Below are positions 5,553-17,493 of a DNA stretch of 64,000 bases, piece after piece. Each line of letters starts with the position of its first letter. Within the stretch, counting starts at the first letter, position 1. The notes under the pieces are model-generated. The model was not told where the DNA came from. It did not search any database and worked only from the letters and a program-made list of their open reading frames with translations. Source of the DNA: Spartobacteria bacterium (lineage in GTDB: Bacteria > Verrucomicrobiota > Verrucomicrobiia > Chthoniobacterales > UBA10450); NCBI GenBank assembly GCA_003134765.1, contig PLCM01000018.1, forward strand, positions 223,465 to 287,464, in the 5' to 3' direction. A program made the translations under genes and the position numbers.

Positions 5553-6332
5553 TCAATCGCCCAGGCCCGATCGTATCTCCGGTTCGGTCAGGGGGCGGTA
5601 GCGAATCGCGGTTTTGTCGCTTCGTTCCAGGACGGCGGCTTCGATGACGACCGCACGCAACCGCTCCTTTCGTTCCGCCAGTATCTTGTCGCGCGCCGGC
5701 AAATCCTTCACGCCGACGTCGCCCAGCGCGAGATGGCCGACCGTCCAGGCATCGAGACTCAGTTTCAACGCTCGATCGAAGGTCGCGCCGGTAGAATGTT
5801 CGGCGTCGAGATACTTTTCCATTAGCTCGGTCGATGGCCGCGTGCCGCTCAGGGCGCCGAAGTTCTGCCGGGTTTGCGCAAAGGTTCCGCTGTTCGTCGC
5901 AATCGCACCGTCGTAATCGAGCCGGAGAAAGAGGTCGTTTTCCTGCTTCGCGCCGATCTCGGCGAAGAGGAGCCGCGCCAGATAGGGCGCCCCGTAGACT
6001 TGCTCGAACGCGGTTTTCAAAATCGGGCTGAGCGAATAATGCGCGAGCCGACGGAGCGACACGTCCGCCGCCGAACGCGTAAAACCCTCCGTGCTGGCGA
6101 GCTCGATGGCCGCCATCCGCAACCGCTCGATGTCGCCCGGATGCCCGATCGCTCCCATCGCGATGCGATCGTAGATCTCGAAAAGTTTCTGCCGCGTTTT
6201 GCCGAGAGTGAGGAAGAGGATGCCGTCTCGATATCCGACCGCCACGATCGGGCTCCCCGCCGCCAGCTGCGTCTCGATGTATTCGGCGCGGTTCGCGATC
6301 GCCTCGACCCAACGATACGGCTCCTCGGTCAT
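5553..6332 (-). CDS. prcA: Proteasome alpha subunit (PrcA)
   Basis: This 259-residue Ntn-fold protein forms the outer, gating ring of a bacterial 20S proteasome. It has no N-terminal Thr nucleophile. Features visible are the helix before the gate (residues 5-24), the strand VAVGYRDGILFLTLGK, then KLFEIYDRIAMGAIGHPGDI and the long helices ending EKYLDAEHS. It overlaps prcB by 4 bp (ATGA), which implies coupled translation and equal supply of the two rings. The C-terminus ends SGLGD; whether it docks an ATPase ring cannot be judged from sequence. The neighbouring UBact gene places it in the UBact proteasome class. HslV is ruled out by the alpha/beta gene pair. Confidence 0.9.
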   Translation of the reverse strand: MTEEPYRWVEAIANRAEYIETQLAAGSPIVAVGYRDGILFLTLGKTRQKLFEIYDRIAMGAIGHPGDIERLRMAAIELASTEGFTRSAADVSLRRLAHYSLSPILKTAFEQVYGAPYLARLLFAEIGAKQENDLFLRLDYDGAIATNSGTFAQTRQNFGALSGTRPSTELMEKYLDAEHSTGATFDRALKLSLDAWTVGHLALGDVGVKDLPARDKILAERKERLRAVVIEAAVLERSDKTAIRYRPLTEPEIRSGLGD

Positions 6333-7126
6333 GCCACGCTCCGCTTGAAGACCGCCGCGATTCGTTTCTCGGGCAGCGTCGTGATGCCTTCGCGCGAAAC
6401 GATTTTGATCACCGGGAAAATCTTCGCGTTCCGATCCACGCCGCCGGTCGCCGTGTCCGACTCCGCGGCGGTATCGAGCGCCCGCAGGGCCACGGTCAAG
6501 GCTTCGTCTTCGTCCAATTTCAGAAGTGGTTTCTTTCCCCAGTTATTTTCATAGTAAAGAATTCCACGGACCGCCGGCGACCCGGAGCCCGTGGCGGCGT
6601 AATCGGCCACCTCGAATTGCGCGCCCATCGCGTCGTAAAAATAAAGCCGTGCGGCCGGCTCCGCGCCGGAATCGTAAGTCGCGAAAATGGGAACGACGAT
6701 GCCGACGCCTTGCAGGACGAACCCAAAATTGTCTCGTAACAATTTCGAGAGCGCACGCACTTTCCCGTCCACGCTCATCTCCTGCAGTTGCGTCCGCCGG
6801 AAAAACTGGAACGAATGTTCGAGGACCCGCGCCATTTCCCAGGCGGTCGCCGGAACGCCCGCGATCGCCATGATGGAATGCCGATCGATCTCGAGCACTT
6901 TGTCAGCGCGATCGTAGATGACGGTGTTGCCTGCGGTAGCTCGGCGATCTCCGGCGACCAGAACCCCGCCCTGGAATTTAAAAGCGAGGATCGTAGTTGC
7001 TTGGGTCTGTGGGATATCGGCGGTCGCCACCATAGGACCTATCGGACCTATGGGTCCTATATGGCCCATTCGCTTTAGCAGCCCAACGAAATCATCGGAG
7101 CCAGCTCCGCCTCCGGCCGTTTCCAT
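6329..7126 (-). CDS. prcB: Proteasome beta subunit (PrcB), N-terminal Thr protease
   Basis: The catalytic ring subunit of the 20S proteasome. A ~43-residue propeptide precedes TTILAFKFQGG. Counting the first Thr as Thr1, Asp17 (AGDRR) and Lys33 (ADKVLEID) fall exactly at the catalytic positions of the family, and a GSGS segment sits near 137-140. The start is ATG 7126, which shares bases with the UBact stop codon (TGATG); a GTG at 7129 is also in frame. The propeptide contains an odd GPI tripeptide repeat made by a 9-bp tandem repeat (7031-7067). At 265 residues the length is normal for PrcB including its propeptide. Confidence 0.93.
   Translation of the reverse strand: METAGGGAGSDDFVGLLKRMGHIGPIGPIGPMVATADIPQTQATTILAFKFQGGVLVAGDRRATAGNTVIYDRADKVLEIDRHSIMAIAGVPATAWEMARVLEHSFQFFRRTQLQEMSVDGKVRALSKLLRDNFGFVLQGVGIVVPIFATYDSGAEPAARLYFYDAMGAQFEVADYAATGSGSPAVRGILYYENNWGKKPLLKLDEDEALTVALRALDTAAESDTATGGVDRNAKIFPVIKIVSREGITTLPEKRIAAVFKRSVA
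7031..7067 (-). repeat. 9-bp tandem repeat inside prcB propeptide
   Basis: About four imperfect copies of the unit AGGTCCTAT (minus strand) encode GHIGPIGPIGPM in the PrcB propeptide. The same unit, also about four copies, occurs in the flavoprotein gene at 28955-28991 in a different frame. Confidence 0.8.
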
Positions 7127-7296
7127 CACTGGCCGGTGCGTTGGCGATAACGCTTGGACTGGTTCGGATCGACCTTGCGCATTTTTTTCAACAGGTCCCG
7201 CGTGTCCGGCCGCGAGACATCCGGCGGCTTGGGACCATCACCGTCTCCCTGCTTCGGCCCCCACGGCACGGGAGGCTTTTGCACGCGCTCAGGCAT
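7126..7296 (-). CDS. UBact, prokaryotic ubiquitin-like protein
   Basis: A 56-residue, highly charged, probably disordered protein starting MPERVQKPPVPWGPK and ending KRYRQRTGQ. The small size, the P-x-P and G-D-G-D-G-P rich N-terminal half, the helix-forming DLLKKMRKVDP segment and the terminal Gly-Gln are features of UBact. UBact is the Pup-like modifier of several Gram-negative phyla. By analogy with Pup, the C-terminal Gln would need deamidation to Glu by a Dop-type enzyme before ligation to target lysines. Its stop overlaps the prcB start (TGATG), so modifier and protease are coupled. The ligase, deamidase and ATPase genes are not in this window. No good Shine-Dalgarno precedes the ATG. 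Confidence 0.85.
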   Translation of the reverse strand: MPERVQKPPVPWGPKQGDGDGPKPPDVSRPDTRDLLKKMRKVDPNQSKRYRQRTGQ

Positions 7297-8492: not shown

Positions 8493-10307
8493 TTAGACCG
8501 GCACGTCGAGCGTCTCTTCGGGAACTGGGCATTCGACGCTCGGCGTTGGGGGTTCGGAGTTTTCCTCGAAGTCTTTTTCGACCGGCTTCTCGAGAAAGCT
8601 TTGTTCCCAAAGCCGGGCGTATTTTCCTCCCAGCTCCAAGAGCGACGCGTGCGTTCCGCGCTCGATGATCCGTCCGCGTTCCAAAACCAGAATCTGATCG
8701 GCGCGAAGAATCGTCGACAGGCGGTGCGCGATGACGAAACAGGTTCGATGCGACATCAGGTGTTCCAGCGCTTCCTGGATCAGGCGCTCCGTCGTCGTGT
8801 CCACGCTCGCCGTCGCTTCATCGAGAATCAGGATCGGCGGATCCTTCAGCAGCGCGCGCGCGATCGATAACCGTTGTTTTTCACCGACACTCAGCTTCAC
8901 TCCGCGCTCGCCTACCACGCTATCCAGACCTTTCGGCAACAGTTCGATGAATCCCCGCGCGTTGGCGGCCTCGGCTGCGGACAAGACCTCGTCATCGCTC
9001 GCCTCCGGCCGCCCCATCAGCAGATTCTCGCGGATTGAACCGTTGAACAGAAAACTTTCCTGCGTCACCACCGCGATCATCTCGCGCAACCGGCGCATCC
9101 CAAATTCACGGATCGGCGTGGCGTCGATCAAAATCTCGCCGGCGTCGTATTCGTAGAATCGGGTGAGCAAATTCACCAGCGTCGATTTGCCGGCGCCGGT
9201 TGTGCCCACCAGCGCGATCGTCTCGCCCGGTTGGGCGTGAAACGTGATGTGCTGGAGCGCGGCTGCGCCTTCTTTTCCGTAGCTAAAGCCGACATCATCG
9301 AAGCGGACGTCGCCGCGCACGCGCGCCGCCGGTTTCGTCACGTCCCAGCCAGGCTCGATCGGCTCGTCCACGATCTCGAAGACACGTTCTCCCGCCGCGC
9401 GTCCCACCTGCACCAGCTGGTTGAGTTGATGCAGCTTGTTGATTGGCTCGTACAAGAATCCGGTCAGCATGAGGAAGGCGATCAGGTCGCCCACCTGCAT
9501 GCCGCCGCTCAGCACCACGCGCGCGCCGAACCACACCGTGAAAACAATTCCGAGCGACCCGGTGAGGATCATCGACGGGTGATACAACGCCCAAACCCGC
9601 ATCACCACGAGCGTCGCCTGGCGGAGCTGGTTACTCACGGAGTTGAAGCGGGCATGTTCTCCCCGTTCCCGGACGAAGCTCTTGATCTGCCGGACGCCCG
9701 CGAGGTTGTCGTGCAGGAGCGAATTCATCGCCGAGGAGGCACGCCGCTGGAGGCGATAACGCCGATGCGCGGTGAGGGTGTACCAAAGCGCGCCCGCGGC
9801 CAGGATCGGCAGCGGGGTCAATCCGACAAACGAAAGCCGGACGCTAAAGTAGAACATCATCCCGAGCACGACCACGAGCTGCAGCACCGCCATGACGCCC
9901 TGCTCAATCCCGTCGATGAGCATCCGTTCGACTGAGGTCACGTCCTCGAGAATGCGTGTCATCAAATCGCCCGTCGCGCGATTGTCGAACCAGCGCAGCG
10001 GCAGCATCTGGATATGCGAGTAAAGATCGCTGCGCAGATCGAAGATGACTCTTTGCTCGAACGTGTTGTTCAAAATGATCCGGAGCGAATTCAGACCGTT
10101 CTGGACCAAGAAGGCGAGCGCTGCGAGCAGGACCAGCGGAGTCAGCCGCTCCGGGTGGTGCTGGTAAAGAACTTCGTCAATAATGCGTTTGGTCACGATG
10201 GGAAACACCATGACCATCAAGGTGCTGACGATGGCGCAAGCCAGGGTCCCGGCCGCCATCCACGGGTAGCGCTTCAGATAAGCAAAGACTCGCCAGACGG
10301 TTCTCAT
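8493..10307 (-). CDS. ABC exporter, fused permease and ATPase (MsbA-like)
   Basis: A 604-residue half-transporter that would act as a homodimer in the inner membrane. Residues 1-310 are the six-helix exporter domain. The ATPase follows, with Walker A GTTGAGKS, Q-loop VTQESFLFNGS, signature LSVGEKQRLSIARALL, Walker B ILILDEATASVD and switch IAHRLST. The best family match is lipid or multidrug exporters of the MsbA/LmrA type; substrate cannot be read from sequence. The C-terminal ~25 residues are acidic and Pro-rich. It is monocistronic between a palindrome and a 215-bp gap (10308-10522) in which I see no feature. Confidence 0.9.
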   Translation of the reverse strand: MRTVWRVFAYLKRYPWMAAGTLACAIVSTLMVMVFPIVTKRIIDEVLYQHHPERLTPLVLLAALAFLVQNGLNSLRIILNNTFEQRVIFDLRSDLYSHIQMLPLRWFDNRATGDLMTRILEDVTSVERMLIDGIEQGVMAVLQLVVVLGMMFYFSVRLSFVGLTPLPILAAGALWYTLTAHRRYRLQRRASSAMNSLLHDNLAGVRQIKSFVRERGEHARFNSVSNQLRQATLVVMRVWALYHPSMILTGSLGIVFTVWFGARVVLSGGMQVGDLIAFLMLTGFLYEPINKLHQLNQLVQVGRAAGERVFEIVDEPIEPGWDVTKPAARVRGDVRFDDVGFSYGKEGAAALQHITFHAQPGETIALVGTTGAGKSTLVNLLTRFYEYDAGEILIDATPIREFGMRRLREMIAVVTQESFLFNGSIRENLLMGRPEASDDEVLSAAEAANARGFIELLPKGLDSVVGERGVKLSVGEKQRLSIARALLKDPPILILDEATASVDTTTERLIQEALEHLMSHRTCFVIAHRLSTILRADQILVLERGRIIERGTHASLLELGGKYARLWEQSFLEKPVEKDFEENSEPPTPSVECPVPEETLDVPV

Positions 10308-10522: not shown

Positions 10523-11947
10523 ATGCCCCCGGTGATTCGACCTTTCCGGTCGTCGCCGCCGGACCGGTACTGCCGCCTTTTCCGACGAAGTCTCCGGGAA
10601 GTGAGCGAGGAAACAATCGAAACTCTTAGTCACCTCGCGTTTTCGATGCTGAAGGACGACGACACCAGCCCCATTCCCAAAAGCTATTGGCGCAAGAACT
10701 CGCCCTTCGCCGGTTACACTTATTTCGGCCAGTTTATCGTTCATAATTTGACCGAAGACGACACCGCGCTGCGTGACGCCGGCGAACAGGAACCATGGGA
10801 AACTGTGAACTCCCGGGGTCCCTGGTTAAACCTGAGCGGAATCTATGATCCATCTCATGATCGTGCCCGGTGGAAGCTCCTTTACCAAGCTGACGGAATC
10901 AGGTTCCGCCTGGGCGAGCCGCGACGCGCGCAGAACGGCGAGCCGTTTGATCTGCCGCTGGATGACGACGGATATCCCGTCTTAACGGACGATCGAAACA
11001 ATGAAAACATCATCGTGCGACAGATTCACGTGATGTTCTTGAAGCTGCACAACCTGGCGATTGATGAGCTGCAAGCTGAGTCTCCGCAGCTTACTGACCG
11101 GGAGCTTTTTGCGAGCGCCCAGGAGCGTGTTTGCTGGCACTACCAATACCTCGTGCGTCAGGATTTTCTCCGCAAGATTTGTCATCCTCCTGTCTTCAAA
11201 GAGCTGGTCCTGGATGACGCGCCACCATGGATTGATTGGAAGACGGGGGGTTTCTCCATTCCAGTTGAACTCGCTCAGGCGGTGCTTCGCTTCGGACACA
11301 GCATGGTCCGCCCTGAATACACTTTGAACATATCGAGCGGGAAGGTTCCACTCGACAAACTCCTCTGCAGCGGACGCCGAGGACCGTTACAACCGGCGGA
11401 AGAGGTCCATTGGCCAAGTTTCCTGGAGGCAGGTGAGTTGGCGATGAGAATCGACACGGGCGCCGCGAGCGGGCTTTTTGGACTGGAGAGTAAGGACATT
11501 CATTCCTTTATTGACGCGGCCCCTCCGCACCTGCCCCACGCGCTTCCCGTTCGGACGCTGGTTCGAGGAGCAAGGAACAGACTTCCGACCGGCCAGGATA
11601 TCGCCCGGAAGTTGGGAATGCCGGTGATTCAGCCGGCGGCGGAACAAGTTGACGGGCAGCTCTACGATCCCGGCAAGGACCTGCGCGGGACCGGCCTCAG
11701 TGACGCCACCCCACTTTGGTACTACATCCTGCTCGAAGCTGAAATAGAGCCCGAAAACCGTGGAGCGAAATTGGGTGAACTGGGAAGCCGTTTGGTGATT
11801 GAAACTATCAACGGAGCTTTGCGGGAGGATCCGGGTTCGTATCTTTCGCGGTTCGGCTCGAACTGGGAACCTCCCCCCTGGAAAAAGACCGGCAAGTCGG
11901 TCACGACCCTCGCCGGTCTCGCGCAATTGGTTGGGTTATATGAATGA
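10523..11947 (+). CDS. Animal-type haem peroxidase family protein
   Basis: A 474-residue member of the peroxidase-cyclooxygenase superfamily (An_peroxidase). The distal haem segment is FGQFIVHNLTEDD (His74), the conserved central motif is DDRNNENIIVRQIHVMF followed by LKLHNLAID, and the proximal His259 sits in RFGHSMVRPEY. These enzymes use H2O2 or O2 to oxidise halides, tyrosines or fatty acids; the substrate here is unknown. No signal peptide is seen, so it is probably cytoplasmic. The stop codon overlaps the start of the LanM-type gene (ATGA), so the two proteins are made together. That makes a role in oxidising a modified peptide plausible, but this is inference. Confidence 0.88.
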   Translation: MPPVIRPFRSSPPDRYCRLFRRSLREVSEETIETLSHLAFSMLKDDDTSPIPKSYWRKNSPFAGYTYFGQFIVHNLTEDDTALRDAGEQEPWETVNSRGPWLNLSGIYDPSHDRARWKLLYQADGIRFRLGEPRRAQNGEPFDLPLDDDGYPVLTDDRNNENIIVRQIHVMFLKLHNLAIDELQAESPQLTDRELFASAQERVCWHYQYLVRQDFLRKICHPPVFKELVLDDAPPWIDWKTGGFSIPVELAQAVLRFGHSMVRPEYTLNISSGKVPLDKLLCSGRRGPLQPAEEVHWPSFLEAGELAMRIDTGAASGLFGLESKDIHSFIDAAPPHLPHALPVRTLVRGARNRLPTGQDIARKLGMPVIQPAAEQVDGQLYDPGKDLRGTGLSDATPLWYYILLEAEIEPENRGAKLGELGSRLVIETINGALREDPGSYLSRFGSNWEPPPWKKTGKSVTTLAGLAQLVGLYE

Positions 11948-13650
11948 AGGCGGAAGGAATTCCGCTGGAGTTCGATCGTTTATTCCTCGACGCGCTAAAT
12001 CCTGAAGAGCTAAGGAGACTCCAGCTTAGTTTAGGGACCAAGGCGAGTCCCGGGTGGCTCAAACTTTTGCAAGACTGCCTTCTTGATTTGAACACAGGCG
12101 CTTCCCGTCATAAGCCGAACCTCAGCATCGAGGAAAATCTGGCTCTGCCGATGGCAACGTATTTCGCCAGAAAATTTCTTGCCGCGCATCGGGAAGGCAT
12201 CAATCAACTGATGACCCGTTCTGTCTGGCGATCGTTGGAAAGGTCCTTGCGTTCGCGACTTGCTTCCACGGCGCGTTTTGCGGCGCAATGGGCGTGGCAG
12301 GTATTCTGTGGCACGCCGGGCTTGCGAGCCCTCGCTTGCTCGGATTCAACGACGACAAGGCTGGCGCGAATTTATTTCAAGGAGGGAATCGAGAAACGCA
12401 CGATTTTTCTCCTCTGCGCAAATCCGGCGCTGGCTCGGCTCTGGGCCGTCCAGGCTGAGCTATGGCTGAAGGCGACGGGCGATTTTCTGCAACACGCGGA
12501 GGAGTTCGCGGTCGGCTGGAAGCAGAAGCAACGCTTCCGGATTACCGCGATCGCGCCCGATCAATCGGATTTACATCGAGGCAATCGATCGGTCATTCAC
12601 GTTCGCCTGAACGATGGGAGTGAATGGTACTACAAACCCAGATCGGGAAACGCCGAGCTCCTCTGGGCTGTGGTCCTGAAGGCCGCCGGTCCCTTTGTAA
12701 GACGGCGCTTTCACAAGCCGCAATTGATCGCAGGAGATGGTCATTGTTGGATGGAATCGGTGTCCCACAAGCCGTGCCGGAACTCGAGAGAGGCCAGGGA
12801 ATTTTTCTTCAAGGCCGGCGTCATCCTGTCTCTGCTCCATCGTCTGCGCGGAGTGGACTTCCATGCGGACAACCTCATCGCTCATGGGTCTCAACCAGTC
12901 CTGACTGACTGTGAAGCATTACTTCATCCGCCAGTTGACCCATTGCTTCGATCCATCCGCGGAACCGGTTTCCTGCCGATGTTCGACCAGGTGAACGGTG
13001 CCGGAGACAGCTTGAGTGCTTTGAGCCGGATAACGTTCGGGCCGCACGCGGTCATGGTGGGAAAGCGGCGGGTGTATGCGTCCGATTTTTGCGACGCAAT
13101 TGTGGCTGGCTTCGAGATGCCTGGGGCCTCATCGCGCGGTCGCCGGTCGATTACTTCAGCCTTGTCGACAATTGTGCAAGAGACGGAGTTCCGTTTTTCG
13201 CGACACCTGTTTCGTTCCACCGCGGAATACAACGCGATTCTGGACGGTTCCCTGCGCCCAGGTGTCCTGCGCAGCTCGAGCGCTCGCCGGAGTTATCTAA
13301 AACGTCTCTGCAGAAAAGGCGGGCATAACTCGTTTCAGATTGAAGCAGAAGTTGCGGCGCTGGAGCAGAACGACATTCCCATATTCCATGGAACGCCGGC
13401 TCCAATCCGCCGCCTTAACCAGAACCAGCTTAAACAGGAGGTTCGAGAGTTAGGCAGGGCATGTCGTCATCTCTCGAAGCGCGTGAGGCTAAACGCGCAT
13501 ACTTATCCGGGTCCGTCGCTTTCCTGTTCCTATGCCCCGCTAGGTCGAGTAAGGAAACCAGGTGCACCTCCAAACGTCCTCTACCGGCTGGGTCAGACGG
13601 GAAGGCAGTGGAAGGGCTGCTTCATCCGGCGGCATAAGCAGAGTTACTAG
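11944..13650 (+). CDS. LanM-type lanthipeptide dehydratase (DUF4135), no cyclase domain
   Basis: A 568-residue protein matching the N-terminal dehydratase half of class II lanthipeptide synthetases. These enzymes phosphorylate Ser/Thr of a precursor peptide and eliminate phosphate. Kinase-like residues are present: Lys231 (YYKPRS), Asp305/His307/Asn310 (GVDFHADNLIAHG) and Asp322/Glu324 (LTDCEALL). The elimination motif Arg424/Thr426 (LFRSTAEY) is intact, and the domain ends with the typical LEQNDIPIF segment. The C-terminal LanC-like zinc cyclase of full LanM (about 1000 residues) is missing. The last ~37 codons overlap a convergent gene and look non-homologous. The start overlaps the peroxidase stop by 4 bp. 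Confidence 0.85.
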   Translation: MKAEGIPLEFDRLFLDALNPEELRRLQLSLGTKASPGWLKLLQDCLLDLNTGASRHKPNLSIEENLALPMATYFARKFLAAHREGINQLMTRSVWRSLERSLRSRLASTARFAAQWAWQVFCGTPGLRALACSDSTTTRLARIYFKEGIEKRTIFLLCANPALARLWAVQAELWLKATGDFLQHAEEFAVGWKQKQRFRITAIAPDQSDLHRGNRSVIHVRLNDGSEWYYKPRSGNAELLWAVVLKAAGPFVRRRFHKPQLIAGDGHCWMESVSHKPCRNSREAREFFFKAGVILSLLHRLRGVDFHADNLIAHGSQPVLTDCEALLHPPVDPLLRSIRGTGFLPMFDQVNGAGDSLSALSRITFGPHAVMVGKRRVYASDFCDAIVAGFEMPGASSRGRRSITSALSTIVQETEFRFSRHLFRSTAEYNAILDGSLRPGVLRSSSARRSYLKRLCRKGGHNSFQIEAEVAALEQNDIPIFHGTPAPIRRLNQNQLKQEVRELGRACRHLSKRVRLNAHTYPGPSLSCSYAPLGRVRKPGAPPNVLYRLGQTGRQWKGCFIRRHKQSY

Positions 13651-13899
13651 TTCATCCCCCTTTGTTACATCAATGTTGGGGTCATAGACCCGAAACTCTG
13701 TCTTGGTTGGAATCGGAACGAGATTCGGGTCCGCGTTTGGGTCTTCCTGCAAATAGAACCAACCATCCGCAAAGACTTGCTTCGCCTGTTTGGGATCATC
13801 AATACAGGCTTGTCTTTGCGCTTTGGAGAAGCTCCGCATTTTCTCACAGAACTTCCAGGTAGCTTCTTCGCGCGCGGCGAAATCAGTCCAATTCCTCAT
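13540..13899 (-). CDS. Small protein with NHLP-like leader; candidate RiPP precursor
   Basis: A 119-residue protein. ATG 13899 is favoured because AGGAG lies 7 bases upstream (13907-13911); ATG 13905 is too close. The central part (RQACIDDPKQAKQVF, then IPTKTEFRVYD and DELVTLLMPP) resembles the nitrile-hydratase-like leader (NHLP) of RiPP precursors, with its F/R-x-x-L-x-DP-x-x-A and terminal VLPP signatures. The ~30 residues after MPP contain S/T residues and one Cys (VWRCTWFPYST) and could be a core peptide. It is 25 bp after the kinase gene and converges on the LanM dehydratase gene with a 111-bp overlap. The leader similarity is by eye only; an unrelated small protein is the alternative. 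Confidence 0.55.
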   Translation of the reverse strand: MRNWTDFAAREEATWKFCEKMRSFSKAQRQACIDDPKQAKQVFADGWFYLQEDPNADPNLVPIPTKTEFRVYDPNIDVTKGDELVTLLMPPDEAALPLPSRLTQPVEDVWRCTWFPYST

Positions 13900-13924
13900 A
13901 ACCATGCTCCTTTGTTGGTGGGGT

Positions 13925-16714
13925 TCATTTCGTATTCGCTTTGGAAAAGAATGGCGCTTCCTGCCGGCGAGAATCCTGCAGTCGGGTTCTGAGTAGCTTC
14001 ACGGTTTCTTCAATTTCACCGGAAAGCTTTTGGAAGCGTGGGTCGGACCGGACCTGGTCGAAGCGCGGGTCGAGGCGCATCGAGCGATAATCAAGCCAGC
14101 CAGCTCGAACGGCGGCCATAAGGCGTGTGATGGCCTGCTCTCTCTTGTTCGCGGACGCTTCGATTGCCGCCAGTCGATAGAGGATCCCGGGGTGATCGGG
14201 CGCCGCCTGAAGCGCTGCCGTTTCTTTTTGCTCCGCTTCGTCGAGCGGGTTTCGATCTGCGTCTGCCCGTTTCTCAAGGCCATAAAGCCGGCCCAAGGCA
14301 GATTGATAACTTATCGCACCATAAAAATGCGCCCCGCCGGCGGGATCACTGCTGGATAATTCGCGGTAGAGACGTTCTGCCTCCGGAAAATTTCTGGAGA
14401 AGAACTCGACCTGGGCCGCCATCTGGCGTGGATAGACTGACTCTGGGTAGCGGTTCTTGTTCTCGTTACAGAGAGCCCGCGCCCCTTCGAAATCGCCATT
14501 GAGGACCTTGAGGTGGCACAACCCAACCCAACCATCGGGTAGTTGAGGATATAGTTCCAAAGCGCGGCGATAAATTGCTTCGGCCTTGGAATCGTCTCCT
14601 AATTCAGCCCAGCAATCGCCAATGATCCAAACATCCTCAGCTGGACGACGCTGCCATTGAGCCATGATCGTGAACCAGGTCAAAGCCTTGTCGGGGTGAC
14701 CAAGAATTCTCCAGAGGCTTCCCGTGAGAGCGATTGCCGGCACATCGGGACCACTCAGCTCGACGAAGGTAAGGATTTCCTCAAGCGAGTCGGCGGGTCG
14801 TCCCGTATGAAAGAGCACGCTCGCCAGCGCCCGGTGGACCTCGCCGGAAAGAGGGTCCATCGCTGCCGCTTCGCGCGCGGCTTTGGTGGCCCGCGCCAAC
14901 AACCTGGCGTCAAACTGATAATGGGTTCGGGTGGTGATAGCTCTGGCAAAATCTGTTCGCGCCAGGACAGATTTGGGCTCGGCATCGATCGCTTTTTGAA
15001 AGCAATTGATGGCCAGCGCCAGGTCTTCGGCCGATTGGCGCTGCGTCAATTCACGGCCGGCGAGGAGGAGGTCGCGTGATCGTTCGTTGTGGAACGCGGG
15101 GTCTTCCCGAGAGGCAACCAGTTTGTCCCAGTTCGCTTGCTCGAGCAGATCGTGAATTTCCCGGACGTCATCCCGCGAGATCTCGCTGGCTGATGCAGTT
15201 AGATTCGATGTTGTCCTGATCCGGCTGAAGAGGACGTTGCCCTCCGGGTCAGTTAAGCGGATCGAAACCCGGATTCCGTCGCGCACGGTGCGGTAGGTCC
15301 CCGAGAGCACGGTCCGGGTTTTGTAAGTTCGAGCCGCCGTCCGGATATCGGCGGCGCTTCCAAAAGCGGATGAAGTATTCTGAGAGCTGACGGAGAGAAC
15401 ACGGGCCGAACCATTTTGACGTAATCCCGAATCCAGACTGCTTGCGATCGTCGATCCGAAGGCCGGGTCCAGCCTCGCTTGATCGAGGTCGAGGAACGGC
15501 AACACCGCGATCGAGTGCTGGACGAGCGCGTGCTCATGCACGGCCTCGGAGAGCCGGCTGCCCTGGATTTGCCAACCGACCGCGGCCGTTGCGAGAAGGC
15601 CGCACGCAGTTATGGCCAGCGCCAGCCTGGGATTGCGTTTCGCCCACCGCCACAGTCGTAGCGGGGGCGAGACAGGCCGTGCCAAAATTGATCGCCCTTC
15701 CAGCCAGCGCTCGAGGTCTTCCGCGAGATCGCGGGAGGACTGGTAGCGCGCGGACGGTTCGCGTTCCAGGCAGCGGGCGCAAATGGTTTCGAGATCGCGA
15801 TCGGCGATCTTCGAGAGCGAGCGCAGTTTGGGCGCGGGAGACTCCGAGGCCTGGTGGATGACTGAAAGGGCGTGGCTGCCGAGAAACGGCGGCCGCCCCG
15901 CGAGCAGCTCGAAAAGGATGGCACCAAGACTATAAACGTCGGACGAGGGCTTCAGCTCGGCGACGGAACTACCGGCTTGTTCGGGGGCGATGTAACCGGG
16001 CGTGCCAAAGATGGTCAGGGTGCGGGTTAGATCGCTTGTGGTGTCGAGCCACTTGGCGAGGCCGAAATCGCTGACAAGAGGCTCTCCTAGGCCATCAAGG
16101 AGGATATTTCCCGGTTTCAAGTCGCGGTGGAGAATCCCGCGGCTATGCGCGTATTGGACGGCGCGCGCAACTTTGGCCACGAGCGCCACGCCCTGGCGAG
16201 GTTCCTTTCTCAAAGCGGGCGCGACCTGTTGCAGAGTTCCACCCGGCGCGAATTTCATGCTGAAGAAGGGCAGACCGTCCTCGCTTTCGCTCACTTCGAA
16301 GATCGGCAGAATGTTGGGATGATCGAGGCTCGCGGCGGCTTGCGCTTCCCGCCGGAAACGGGCCAGGGTTTCGCGCGAATCGGCGTGGTAACTCAGGACC
16401 CGCTTCAAGGCGACGATTCGGCGGGAATGCCGTTGGCGGGCCCGATAAATCACACCCATGCCACCGCGGCCGATCTCCTCCAGGATCTCGTAGTTGCCGA
16501 GCCGCCAGTTCTGGTCCGGCAATTTCACTTCAGCGAGAATGCCAGCGAGCGATTCCGATTCGGATTCGTCGGCCGGATCGAGCCCGGCTTCGAGGAGACA
16601 ACCCACGCAAAGGCCGCCGGCGATCTGCGAGGAGGAATCGCAATGCGGACAGGGCGGGGAATCAGTGACAACGCTGGCGATTGAATCGGAAAAGCCGGGG
16701 GAAAAACTTTTCAT
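13925..16714 (-). CDS. Membrane Ser/Thr protein kinase with zinc ribbon and TPR domain
   Basis: A 929-residue Hanks-type kinase. The N-terminus has a CPHC...CVGC zinc ribbon. The kinase domain (about residues 73-335) has the glycine loop IGRGGMGVIYRA, VALKRV, the catalytic loop HRDLKPGNILL, VSDFGLA and GTPGYIAPE, so it should be active. A single transmembrane helix (ALAITACGLLATAAVGW) is followed by a segment like a prokaryotic adenylate-cyclase-associated domain (SIAVLPFLDLD) and then TPR repeats to the end. It overlaps the ECF sigma gene upstream by 4 bp. Kinase-sigma pairs of this type are common in Verrucomicrobiota and Planctomycetota and suggest that phosphorylation controls the sigma factor. 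Confidence 0.9.
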   Translation of the reverse strand: MKSFSPGFSDSIASVVTDSPPCPHCDSSSQIAGGLCVGCLLEAGLDPADESESESLAGILAEVKLPDQNWRLGNYEILEEIGRGGMGVIYRARQRHSRRIVALKRVLSYHADSRETLARFRREAQAAASLDHPNILPIFEVSESEDGLPFFSMKFAPGGTLQQVAPALRKEPRQGVALVAKVARAVQYAHSRGILHRDLKPGNILLDGLGEPLVSDFGLAKWLDTTSDLTRTLTIFGTPGYIAPEQAGSSVAELKPSSDVYSLGAILFELLAGRPPFLGSHALSVIHQASESPAPKLRSLSKIADRDLETICARCLEREPSARYQSSRDLAEDLERWLEGRSILARPVSPPLRLWRWAKRNPRLALAITACGLLATAAVGWQIQGSRLSEAVHEHALVQHSIAVLPFLDLDQARLDPAFGSTIASSLDSGLRQNGSARVLSVSSQNTSSAFGSAADIRTAARTYKTRTVLSGTYRTVRDGIRVSIRLTDPEGNVLFSRIRTTSNLTASASEISRDDVREIHDLLEQANWDKLVASREDPAFHNERSRDLLLAGRELTQRQSAEDLALAINCFQKAIDAEPKSVLARTDFARAITTRTHYQFDARLLARATKAAREAAAMDPLSGEVHRALASVLFHTGRPADSLEEILTFVELSGPDVPAIALTGSLWRILGHPDKALTWFTIMAQWQRRPAEDVWIIGDCWAELGDDSKAEAIYRRALELYPQLPDGWVGLCHLKVLNGDFEGARALCNENKNRYPESVYPRQMAAQVEFFSRNFPEAERLYRELSSSDPAGGAHFYGAISYQSALGRLYGLEKRADADRNPLDEAEQKETAALQAAPDHPGILYRLAAIEASANKREQAITRLMAAVRAGWLDYRSMRLDPRFDQVRSDPRFQKLSGEIEETVKLLRTRLQDSRRQEAPFFSKANTK

Positions 16715-17493
16715 GAGGTAGGCTCGGAATTGGCGGCGAGGACACTGCAGAGATGGCGAATTTCATCATCGATCTCGGCCGGGTTGGTGACGGTATCCGC
16801 GACTTCATCGCGAAGCAGGTCGCGATACCGTTGGCGGAGCCGATGCACGAGGCGTTTCACGGTTGCCTCGGGCACGCCGAGAGTCTGGGAGAGTGTGGGA
16901 TAGGACACGTCTTCGCGTTCGGCTCCGAGACAGGGTCGGAGCGCTTCGAAGGCGCGCAGGCACCCCTGGCTTTCGCACTCTTCGCGCAACCGATGCAACG
17001 CCTGTTCGACGACAGTCGCGGCCCAGCGAAGGTCGAAGAGTCGCTCGGCCGGCCACGATTCGAGCGAACGCGCGGAAACCGTGAGTTGCGAGGGCGCTTC
17101 CGCCATCCAGTCATCCCAGGAAACAAACCGGACGTCCCCGCCACGCTTGCGCGCCGATTTCTTGCTCGCGGCGTCGTTCAGGAAATTCTGGAGCGACTTG
17201 AGCAGGAGCGAGCGGAAGCGGCCGCGGTGGGGGTCGGCGTTTTTGAGCCAGTTACCTTCCAGCATCATAAGAAAAAAGTCCTGGGTCAGGTCCTGAGCAT
17301 CTTCAGCGGAATGGCCGCGCCGGCAGACGAACGAGAAAATGGGCCGCCAGTAAATCCGGCAGAGTTCCGAAAGCGCCTGGCGCGCTTTTTGGTCGTCGCC
17401 GGCGAGATCGGCCGAGGTAAGGACAAGGCTCCAGCGCGTGGTTATGAAGTTGCGAGGAGCGCCACCGTCTTCCGTGGCTAGGCTGGAGTTCAC
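16711..17493 (-). CDS. ECF-type RNA polymerase sigma factor
   Basis: A 260-residue sigma-70 family regulator. Region 2 is recognisable as ALSELCRIYWRPIFSFVCRRG followed by AEDAQDLTQDFFLMML. Region 4 with its helix-turn-helix is YPTLSQTLGVPEATVKRLVHRLRQRY. A longer-than-usual linker (about 60 residues, RGGDVRFVSWDDW) lies between them, as in planctomycete/verrucomicrobial ECF groups linked to kinases. The kinase gene follows with a 4-bp overlap, and then the small precursor-like protein, so these three are likely one transcript. The 249-bp gap before folB (17494-17742) must hold its promoter; I could not identify one with confidence. Confidence 0.88.
   Translation of the reverse strand: MNSSLATEDGGAPRNFITTRWSLVLTSADLAGDDQKARQALSELCRIYWRPIFSFVCRRGHSAEDAQDLTQDFFLMMLEGNWLKNADPHRGRFRSLLLKSLQNFLNDAASKKSARKRGGDVRFVSWDDWMAEAPSQLTVSARSLESWPAERLFDLRWAATVVEQALHRLREECESQGCLRAFEALRPCLGAEREDVSYPTLSQTLGVPEATVKRLVHRLRQRYRDLLRDEVADTVTNPAEIDDEIRHLCSVLAANSEPTS

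Follow-up and report, generated by a model that had tools for sequence, protein, structure and literature searches.

We analyzed a 64,000-nucleotide stretch of the genome of a Spartobacteria bacterium (assembly GCA_003134765.1, contig PLCM01000018.1, positions 223,465 to 287,464; this whole stretch is called the window), in which the genes for a haem peroxidase and a stand-alone LanM-type dehydratase face a small gene that resembles a peptide precursor. The source genome, from the Verrucomicrobiota, comprises 4.05 Mb in 41 contigs and is 94% complete. The locus holds five genes, with the following features:

10523..11947, + strand: haem peroxidase of the animal-peroxidase/cyclooxygenase superfamily, 474 aa (Pfam PF03098 An_peroxidase, E 4.5e-17)
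11944..13650, + strand: stand-alone LanM-type dehydratase (DUF4135), 568 aa, without LanC (Pfam PF13575, E 1.3e-55)
13540..13905, - strand: small precursor-like protein, 121 aa, with a predicted nitrile hydratase leader peptide (NHLP)-like leader and short C-terminal core (from homologues, profile and selection)
13543..13572, - strand: predicted core WRCTWFPYST, residues 112-121, motif C-T-W-x-x-Y (from alignment A1 and the tails of the individual loci)
13925..16714, - strand: TPR-repeat Ser/Thr protein kinase, 929 aa (Pfam Pkinase, E 1.7e-46, plus TPR)
16711..17493, - strand: extracytoplasmic function (ECF)-type sigma factor, 260 aa (Pfam Sigma70_ECF, E 6.6e-05)

The two enzyme genes share 4 bp on the plus strand. 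On the minus strand the ECF sigma factor, kinase and small genes follow one another in that order and converge on the enzyme pair, with a 4-bp overlap between the sigma factor gene and the start of the kinase gene, a 19-bp gap between the kinase and small genes, and the 3' end of the small gene antisense to the DUF4135 gene over 111 bp. A preliminary description of this DNA was right about the coordinates, about the 4 bp shared by the enzyme genes and about the small gene converging on them. The end that it gave for the small gene, 13899, is the second Met of an open reading frame (ORF) spanning 13540-13905, and the feature runs on past its limits to 17493, the small gene being the third after the sigma factor and kinase genes.

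The peroxidase carries the Pfam domain and the haem-site residues of the animal-type haem peroxidase superfamily, to which it had already been assigned; haem binding and activity are predicted. His74, Arg158, Arg256 and His259, which we take from general knowledge of the superfamily to be the distal and proximal haem residues, are identical in all 16 loci that encode both enzymes (see below). An AlphaFold model (mean predicted local distance difference test score, pLDDT, of 72, with the segments around R158 and H259 below 50) matched the cyanobacterial TDX16 peroxidase (8s6c), Dictyostelium peroxidase A, myeloperoxidase, DUOX and cyclooxygenases.

The DUF4135 protein has no LANC_like domain by Pfam, as first proposed. 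Pfam analysis of 18 aligned members identified DUF4135 in 18/18 and LANC_like in 0/18, the DUF4135 ORFs of the 16 two-enzyme loci span 468-589 aa, and the window genome (94% complete) yielded no LanC; on these grounds we rejected loss of the cyclase by local truncation. The NCBIfam LanM model matches over its first third, with 187 bits where the cut-off is 304. Foldseek analysis of the AlphaFold model (mean pLDDT 80) identified CylM (5dzt, E 3.7e-19) and LicM2 (6st5, E 2.6e-18), with TM-scores of 0.60-0.62 by the length of the DUF4135 protein and 0.40 by theirs. We transferred the residues tested by mutation in CylM (PMC4550811) through a phmmer alignment, and all nine are present in the window protein: D209, H211, K231, D305, H307, N310, D322, R420 and T426. 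The equivalents of CylM D347, H349, N352, D364 and R506 (D305, H307, N310, D322, R420) are identical in 16/16 loci, those of D252, H254 and K274 (D209, H211, K231) are kept in 15/16, and that of T512 (T426) is Thr in 14 and Ser in 2. The catalytic residues listed in the preliminary description therefore hold for K231, D305, H307, N310, D322 and T426, which aligns with Thr512, and fail for R424, since CylM Arg506 aligns with Arg420. Thr512 of CylM is critical for elimination according to PMC4550811, and because the elimination residues are conserved, the window protein is predicted to dehydrate Thr.

Using the DUF4135 protein as query, we searched 213 genomes of the window genome's order and found matches in 27. 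In 14 of the 27, all from the window genome's own family, a peroxidase gene is directly followed by a stand-alone DUF4135 gene, giving 16 loci; the remaining 13 genomes are accounted for by longer LanM-like ORFs or by other families of the order. By profile, the small gene and the kinase gene are present in 16/16 of the two-enzyme loci and the ECF gene in 15/16, the sixteenth contig ending before it. The gene layout recurs in every one of these loci, and chance co-occurrence of the enzyme pair was rejected for that reason; the pairing noticed at a single locus is thus conserved elsewhere. Neighboring ORFs of at least 100 aa were clustered by BLAST across the 16 loci (stretches of 7.7 to 20 kb each). 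The five genes are the sole families in common (ECF 15/16), and no other family occurs in more than 6/16, so that no exporter or protease was assigned to the set.

The peroxidase profile matched 28 of 83 genomes of the window genome's family, a reach that accounts for several loci having a peroxidase without DUF4135, and 10 of 387 genomes in a sample of the phylum. In a sample of the class the DUF4135 profile matched 12 of 384 genomes, and its three matches outside the order lie within ORFs of 1109-1190 aa. The viral contigs searched contained no relative. A scan of named genomes with the peroxidase gave at least 593 pattern matches; 561 of those listed encode a relative, and 79 loci were retained. 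Among the matches listed, 13 of the 79 loci have the small gene and/or DUF4135, all 13 in Verrucomicrobiota and most of them contigs also found in another search, and the closest named peroxidase relative is from Verrucomicrobia bacterium AV80 (73% identity). Other cluster-bearing relatives with a name carry the labels Verrucomicrobia, Spartobacteria or Chthoniobacterales.

A homologue of the small protein occupies the equivalent place in all 16 two-enzyme loci, and differences per codon position of 0.18/0.11/0.56 in a seven-locus group, where dS is mostly saturated, indicate that the gene is under purifying selection in the relatives; a chance ORF was rejected on both grounds. When members were scanned singly, 6/17 matched TIGR03793 (best E 1.5e-4, for locus L049) and 7/17 matched NF038399 (best E 0.0054), none being shown above the curated cut-off. 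The family profile aligned with five NHLP-type leaders of the order (alignment A4) with a probability of 95% and E 1.9e-8, and by this match the leader is predicted to be a diverged NHLP-like one. Of these five leaders, the four that were scanned score over the curated cut-off, and all five carry GG. The middle of the small protein varies in length and its tail is fixed, reading C-T-[YW]-x-x-[WY] in 15/16 and C-S-Y-x-x-W in 1/16 of the two-enzyme loci, the latter in L041 (alignment A1, in which the first two codons of L036 are missing).

Loci with a single enzyme provided a comparison. At seven loci, with nine readable cores, the peroxidase gene occurs without a DUF4135 gene; five have one core, with tails FRCTWFPY (L183), FKGAWFPY (L184), WIGTWVPY (L187), WVATWPPY (L190) and MCCYQAW (L188), and two have paired cores, WVAAWPPY and WIAAWSPY (L189), and GCFTKFRLG and EGFYFVW (L185). 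The L189 pair arises from one ORF (7680-8405 of L189, genome G127) with two full leader-core units arranged in tandem, each with a WxxY tail. An aromatic-x-x-aromatic spacing is kept in 8/9 of these cores and C[TS] in 1/9 (L183). Counted by locus, C[TS] is present in 16/16 with DUF4135 versus 1/7 without it (Fisher p 7e-5, which is indicative only, since the loci are related). In the peroxidase tree L184, which has G-A in place of C-T and no dehydratase gene at the locus, nests inside a DUF4135-bearing clade, while L187, L189 and L190 form a separate supported clade; the tail has therefore changed in at least two lineages. Only forks inside the Verrucomicrobiota rows were used, the tree also containing very long out-group rows (L063, L064, L068, L071 and L100), some probably from a wrong or merged frame, and some rows of alignments A2 and A3 and of the tree have over-long starts.

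Five loci of another family have the dehydratase only (L048 and L218 being one locus), with tails SLCTDPTG (L049), STLCTDYTTTITNPNT (L203), QYCCTGGTQTILTLLTR (L204), QMLCTVGTSW (L205) and LECTQGGGTNPPT (L218, a Lys-rich small ORF). CT is present in 5/5 of them and CT followed by aromatic-x-x-aromatic in 0/5. The genome of L049 (G073) has a distant peroxidase elsewhere. At L048/L218 (G075) a ketoacyl-synthase-like gene, identified by eye, directly precedes the stand-alone DUF4135 gene, which faces the Lys-rich small ORF, with its end ECTQGGGTNPPT.

We left out of the counts L210; L186 and L191, where the contig ends at the peroxidase and no precursor was seen; L200, a peroxidase fragment with no small gene called; L196, a distant peroxidase; and L206, where no precursor was recognized in the forward frames examined. 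L202 (G145) was left out as a decayed copy of the cluster, with the kinase and peroxidase in pieces and a small gene that stops before the core. L192-L195, L197-L199 and L201, which hold another peroxidase subfamily or fragments and in which no comparable small gene was called, were likewise left out. In L193, L195 and L197 (genus g14), this second subfamily has an N-terminal hydrophobic stretch and adjoins ECF sigma factor and/or kinase genes, with no recognizable small gene beside it.

Two of the peroxidase-only loci, L185 and L188, differ in their predicted location. The peroxidase starts with a twin-arginine stretch and the small protein with a hydrophobic stretch resembling a signal peptide (peak hydropathy at the start of 2.2-2.3 versus at most 1.03 in the 16 two-enzyme loci), so that enzyme and small protein seem to have moved compartment together. 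Both loci lack DUF4135, which uses ATP. The simplest account of the one-enzyme loci and of this change of compartment is that the small protein would be a shared substrate, with the Cys-Thr pair as the site of the dehydratase and the aromatic-x-x-aromatic pair as that of the peroxidase.

Taken together, these results suggest that the locus is probably a cluster of the ribosomally synthesized and post-translationally modified peptide (RiPP) type, in which dehydratase and peroxidase tailor one small precursor under the control of the ECF sigma factor and kinase. The small gene is real and under selection, its product has an NHLP-like leader, and the tail covaries with the enzymes; this supports one peptide acted on by two enzymes, as the preliminary description had suggested without foreseeing the Cys beside the Thr or the involvement of the kinase and sigma factor, and we infer that both enzymes act on the small protein. 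Which chemical changes take place, and in what order, is speculative; we propose the following. The NHLP-like leader of the 121-aa precursor would be bound by one or both enzymes, and the DUF4135 protein would phosphorylate the Thr (or Ser) of the tail pair, Thr115 in the window precursor, and eliminate the phosphate to give dehydrobutyrine (Dhb). With LanC absent, no classical lanthionine ring would form, and the adjacent Cys may react with the alkene so formed or serve in recognition. The peroxidase would oxidize the aromatic residue directly after the Thr and that three positions on (W-x-x-Y or Y-x-x-W), most likely coupling the two to each other. For two aromatics at fixed spacing, coupling is the most economical reaction that a peroxidase could carry out, halogenation or hydroxylation being possible as well. 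The ECF sigma factor and Ser/Thr kinase are probable regulators of the cluster and would control its expression. More tentatively, and with less than even expectation, we propose a new RiPP family in which a peroxidase staples an aromatic-x-x-aromatic pair beside a residue dehydrated by a cyclase-free LanM, the Cys is trapped by the alkene, an ECF sigma factor and a eukaryote-like kinase exert control, and the tail follows the gain and loss of the enzymes lineage by lineage.

Several observations weigh against this interpretation. L183, the locus with the nearest relative of the window peroxidase and a split kinase gene, retains CTW though no dehydratase gene adjoins. DUF4135 occurs elsewhere in the genomes of L183, L184, L185 and L189, and as the last three lack C[TS] all the same, supply in trans fails to explain L183; none was found elsewhere in the genomes of L187, L188 and L190 (G110, G142 and G149). 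Taken singly, Cys is in place in 3/9 peroxidase-only cores (L183, L188 and one L185 repeat) and Thr in 3/9 (L183, L187, L190); Cys-Thr is lost from these cores as a pair, not as single residues. Among the dehydratase-only loci, the small ORFs of L205 and L218 failed the precursor profile and were picked by position, DUF4135 is fragmented in L203 and L205, and the small ORFs of L207 and L208, with a more distant DUF4135, lack CT. The NHLP-like leader of the preliminary description holds for the family profile, in diverged form; the window's small protein alone matches no NHLP model, the members fall below the curated cut-offs, and alignment A1 contains no conserved Gly-Gly motif. A Gly-Gly cleavage motif and a linked C39/PCAT exporter are features of NHLP-leader RiPP precursors; no transporter is shared by the 16 two-enzyme loci, and the stretches compared show no exporter or protease conserved alongside the five genes. 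Neither partner lies near the peroxidase in 66 of the 79 named loci, among the matches listed, and the enzyme would need a supply of H2O2 in the cytoplasm. Finally, the DUF4135 domain excised from CcaM was inactive without its cyclase domain, according to PMC10676384.

A first alternative concerns how far the DUF4135 protein would carry its reaction. It may phosphorylate the Thr only, with the peroxidase oxidizing the phosphopeptide and no dehydration taking place, as the Ser found in 2/16 loci at the position of CylM Thr512 (the elimination residue of PMC4550811) and the lack of a downstream cyclase to use a dehydro residue would allow. We regard this as the least probable of the alternatives, because all 16 loci retain the counterpart of Arg506 and 15/16 those of Asp252 and His254, and because the excised dehydratase domains of CylM, HalM2 and NukM sufficed for dehydration, as cited in PMC10676384. 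The fate of a dehydrated residue beside a Cys is a further question. The Cys-Thr pair may become a thioether or other Cys-Dhb ring (an adjacent methyllanthionine or a rearranged form), made by the DUF4135 protein alone or spontaneously; this proposal, doubtful but the strongest of the alternatives, is compatible with dehydration and oxidation of one precursor and fits the tracking of DUF4135 by the pair whether the peroxidase is present or not. A seven-membered ring of neighbors would be strained, from general knowledge. It would also break the usual spacing rule, because Cys is the direct neighbor of Thr in the core, whereas the lanthionine bridges described in PMC11251773 take the form [ST]*C, or more rarely C*[ST], and enclose two residues or more.

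For the peroxidase, the fold relatives include myelo- and lactoperoxidase, which are halide oxidizers. Halogenation or hydroxylation of the aromatics by hypohalous acid or compound I, with no cross-link, is nevertheless unlikely in our view, given that the spacing of the two aromatics is fixed in 16/16 two-enzyme loci and in 8/9 peroxidase-only cores, which suits a bond better. We also considered that the small protein is unmodified, acting as an accessory or regulatory partner of the peroxidase (an inhibitor or chaperone) with the tail as a binding motif. The persistence of the small protein with the peroxidase where DUF4135 is missing is consistent with such a role, as are the weak NHLP matches of single sequences. 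However, the tail Cys-Thr tracks DUF4135 even in a family without a peroxidase at the locus, and the leader-core unit is duplicated in L189; we therefore consider an accessory role quite improbable.

Elsewhere in the window, an ABC transporter gene (8493-10307) was considered as the exporter of the cluster and not adopted, since the 16 loci have no transporter family in common; a similar gene, judged by its start sequence, adjoins the cluster in L053 and L062. At 5553-7129 the minus strand encodes, side by side, two subunits of proteasome type (Pfam Proteasome, with E 2e-5 for one and 1.2e-28 for the other), which to our knowledge are not common in Verrucomicrobiota.

No haem peroxidase acting as a RiPP enzyme of this kind, and no peroxidase-DUF4135 pair, was found in our searches of the open-access literature, and the cluster, probably of the RiPP kind, has a fair chance of representing a new class. 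The window dehydratase shares the DUF4135 fold and the nine catalytic residues with the LanM enzymes CylM and LicM2; unlike them it has no LanC cyclase, with none found in the genome, and its partner is a haem peroxidase. The dehydrazoles offer a second parallel, as CcaM (LanMbC), described in PMC10676384, uses DUF4135 to dehydrate an NHLP-led precursor without forming lanthionine, a course that is predicted here from genes. However, CcaM is fused to a required class III-like cyclase domain and needs azoles made by a YcaO enzyme, whereas the window DUF4135 stands alone by Pfam and is partnered by a peroxidase; YcaO is absent from the five families common to the 16 loci, the whole genome not having been searched for it. 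NHLP-led precursors such as the proteusins and the LanM-linked NHLPs resemble the small protein in leader profile, but the window family falls below the cut-offs for single sequences, lacks a conserved Gly-Gly, has a very short, fixed core and occurs with linked genes for a kinase and for an ECF sigma factor. If our proposal is correct, an animal-type haem peroxidase joins the enzymes that tailor ribosomal peptides and a LanM dehydratase works without a cyclase. The one-enzyme loci would serve as natural controls, making the target residues of each enzyme predictable from genomes and testable with short, simple cores. The peroxidase itself shares its fold and haem-site residues with members of the peroxidase-cyclooxygenase superfamily such as the TDX16 enzyme and myeloperoxidase, and differs from them in its fixed linkage to a precursor-like peptide.

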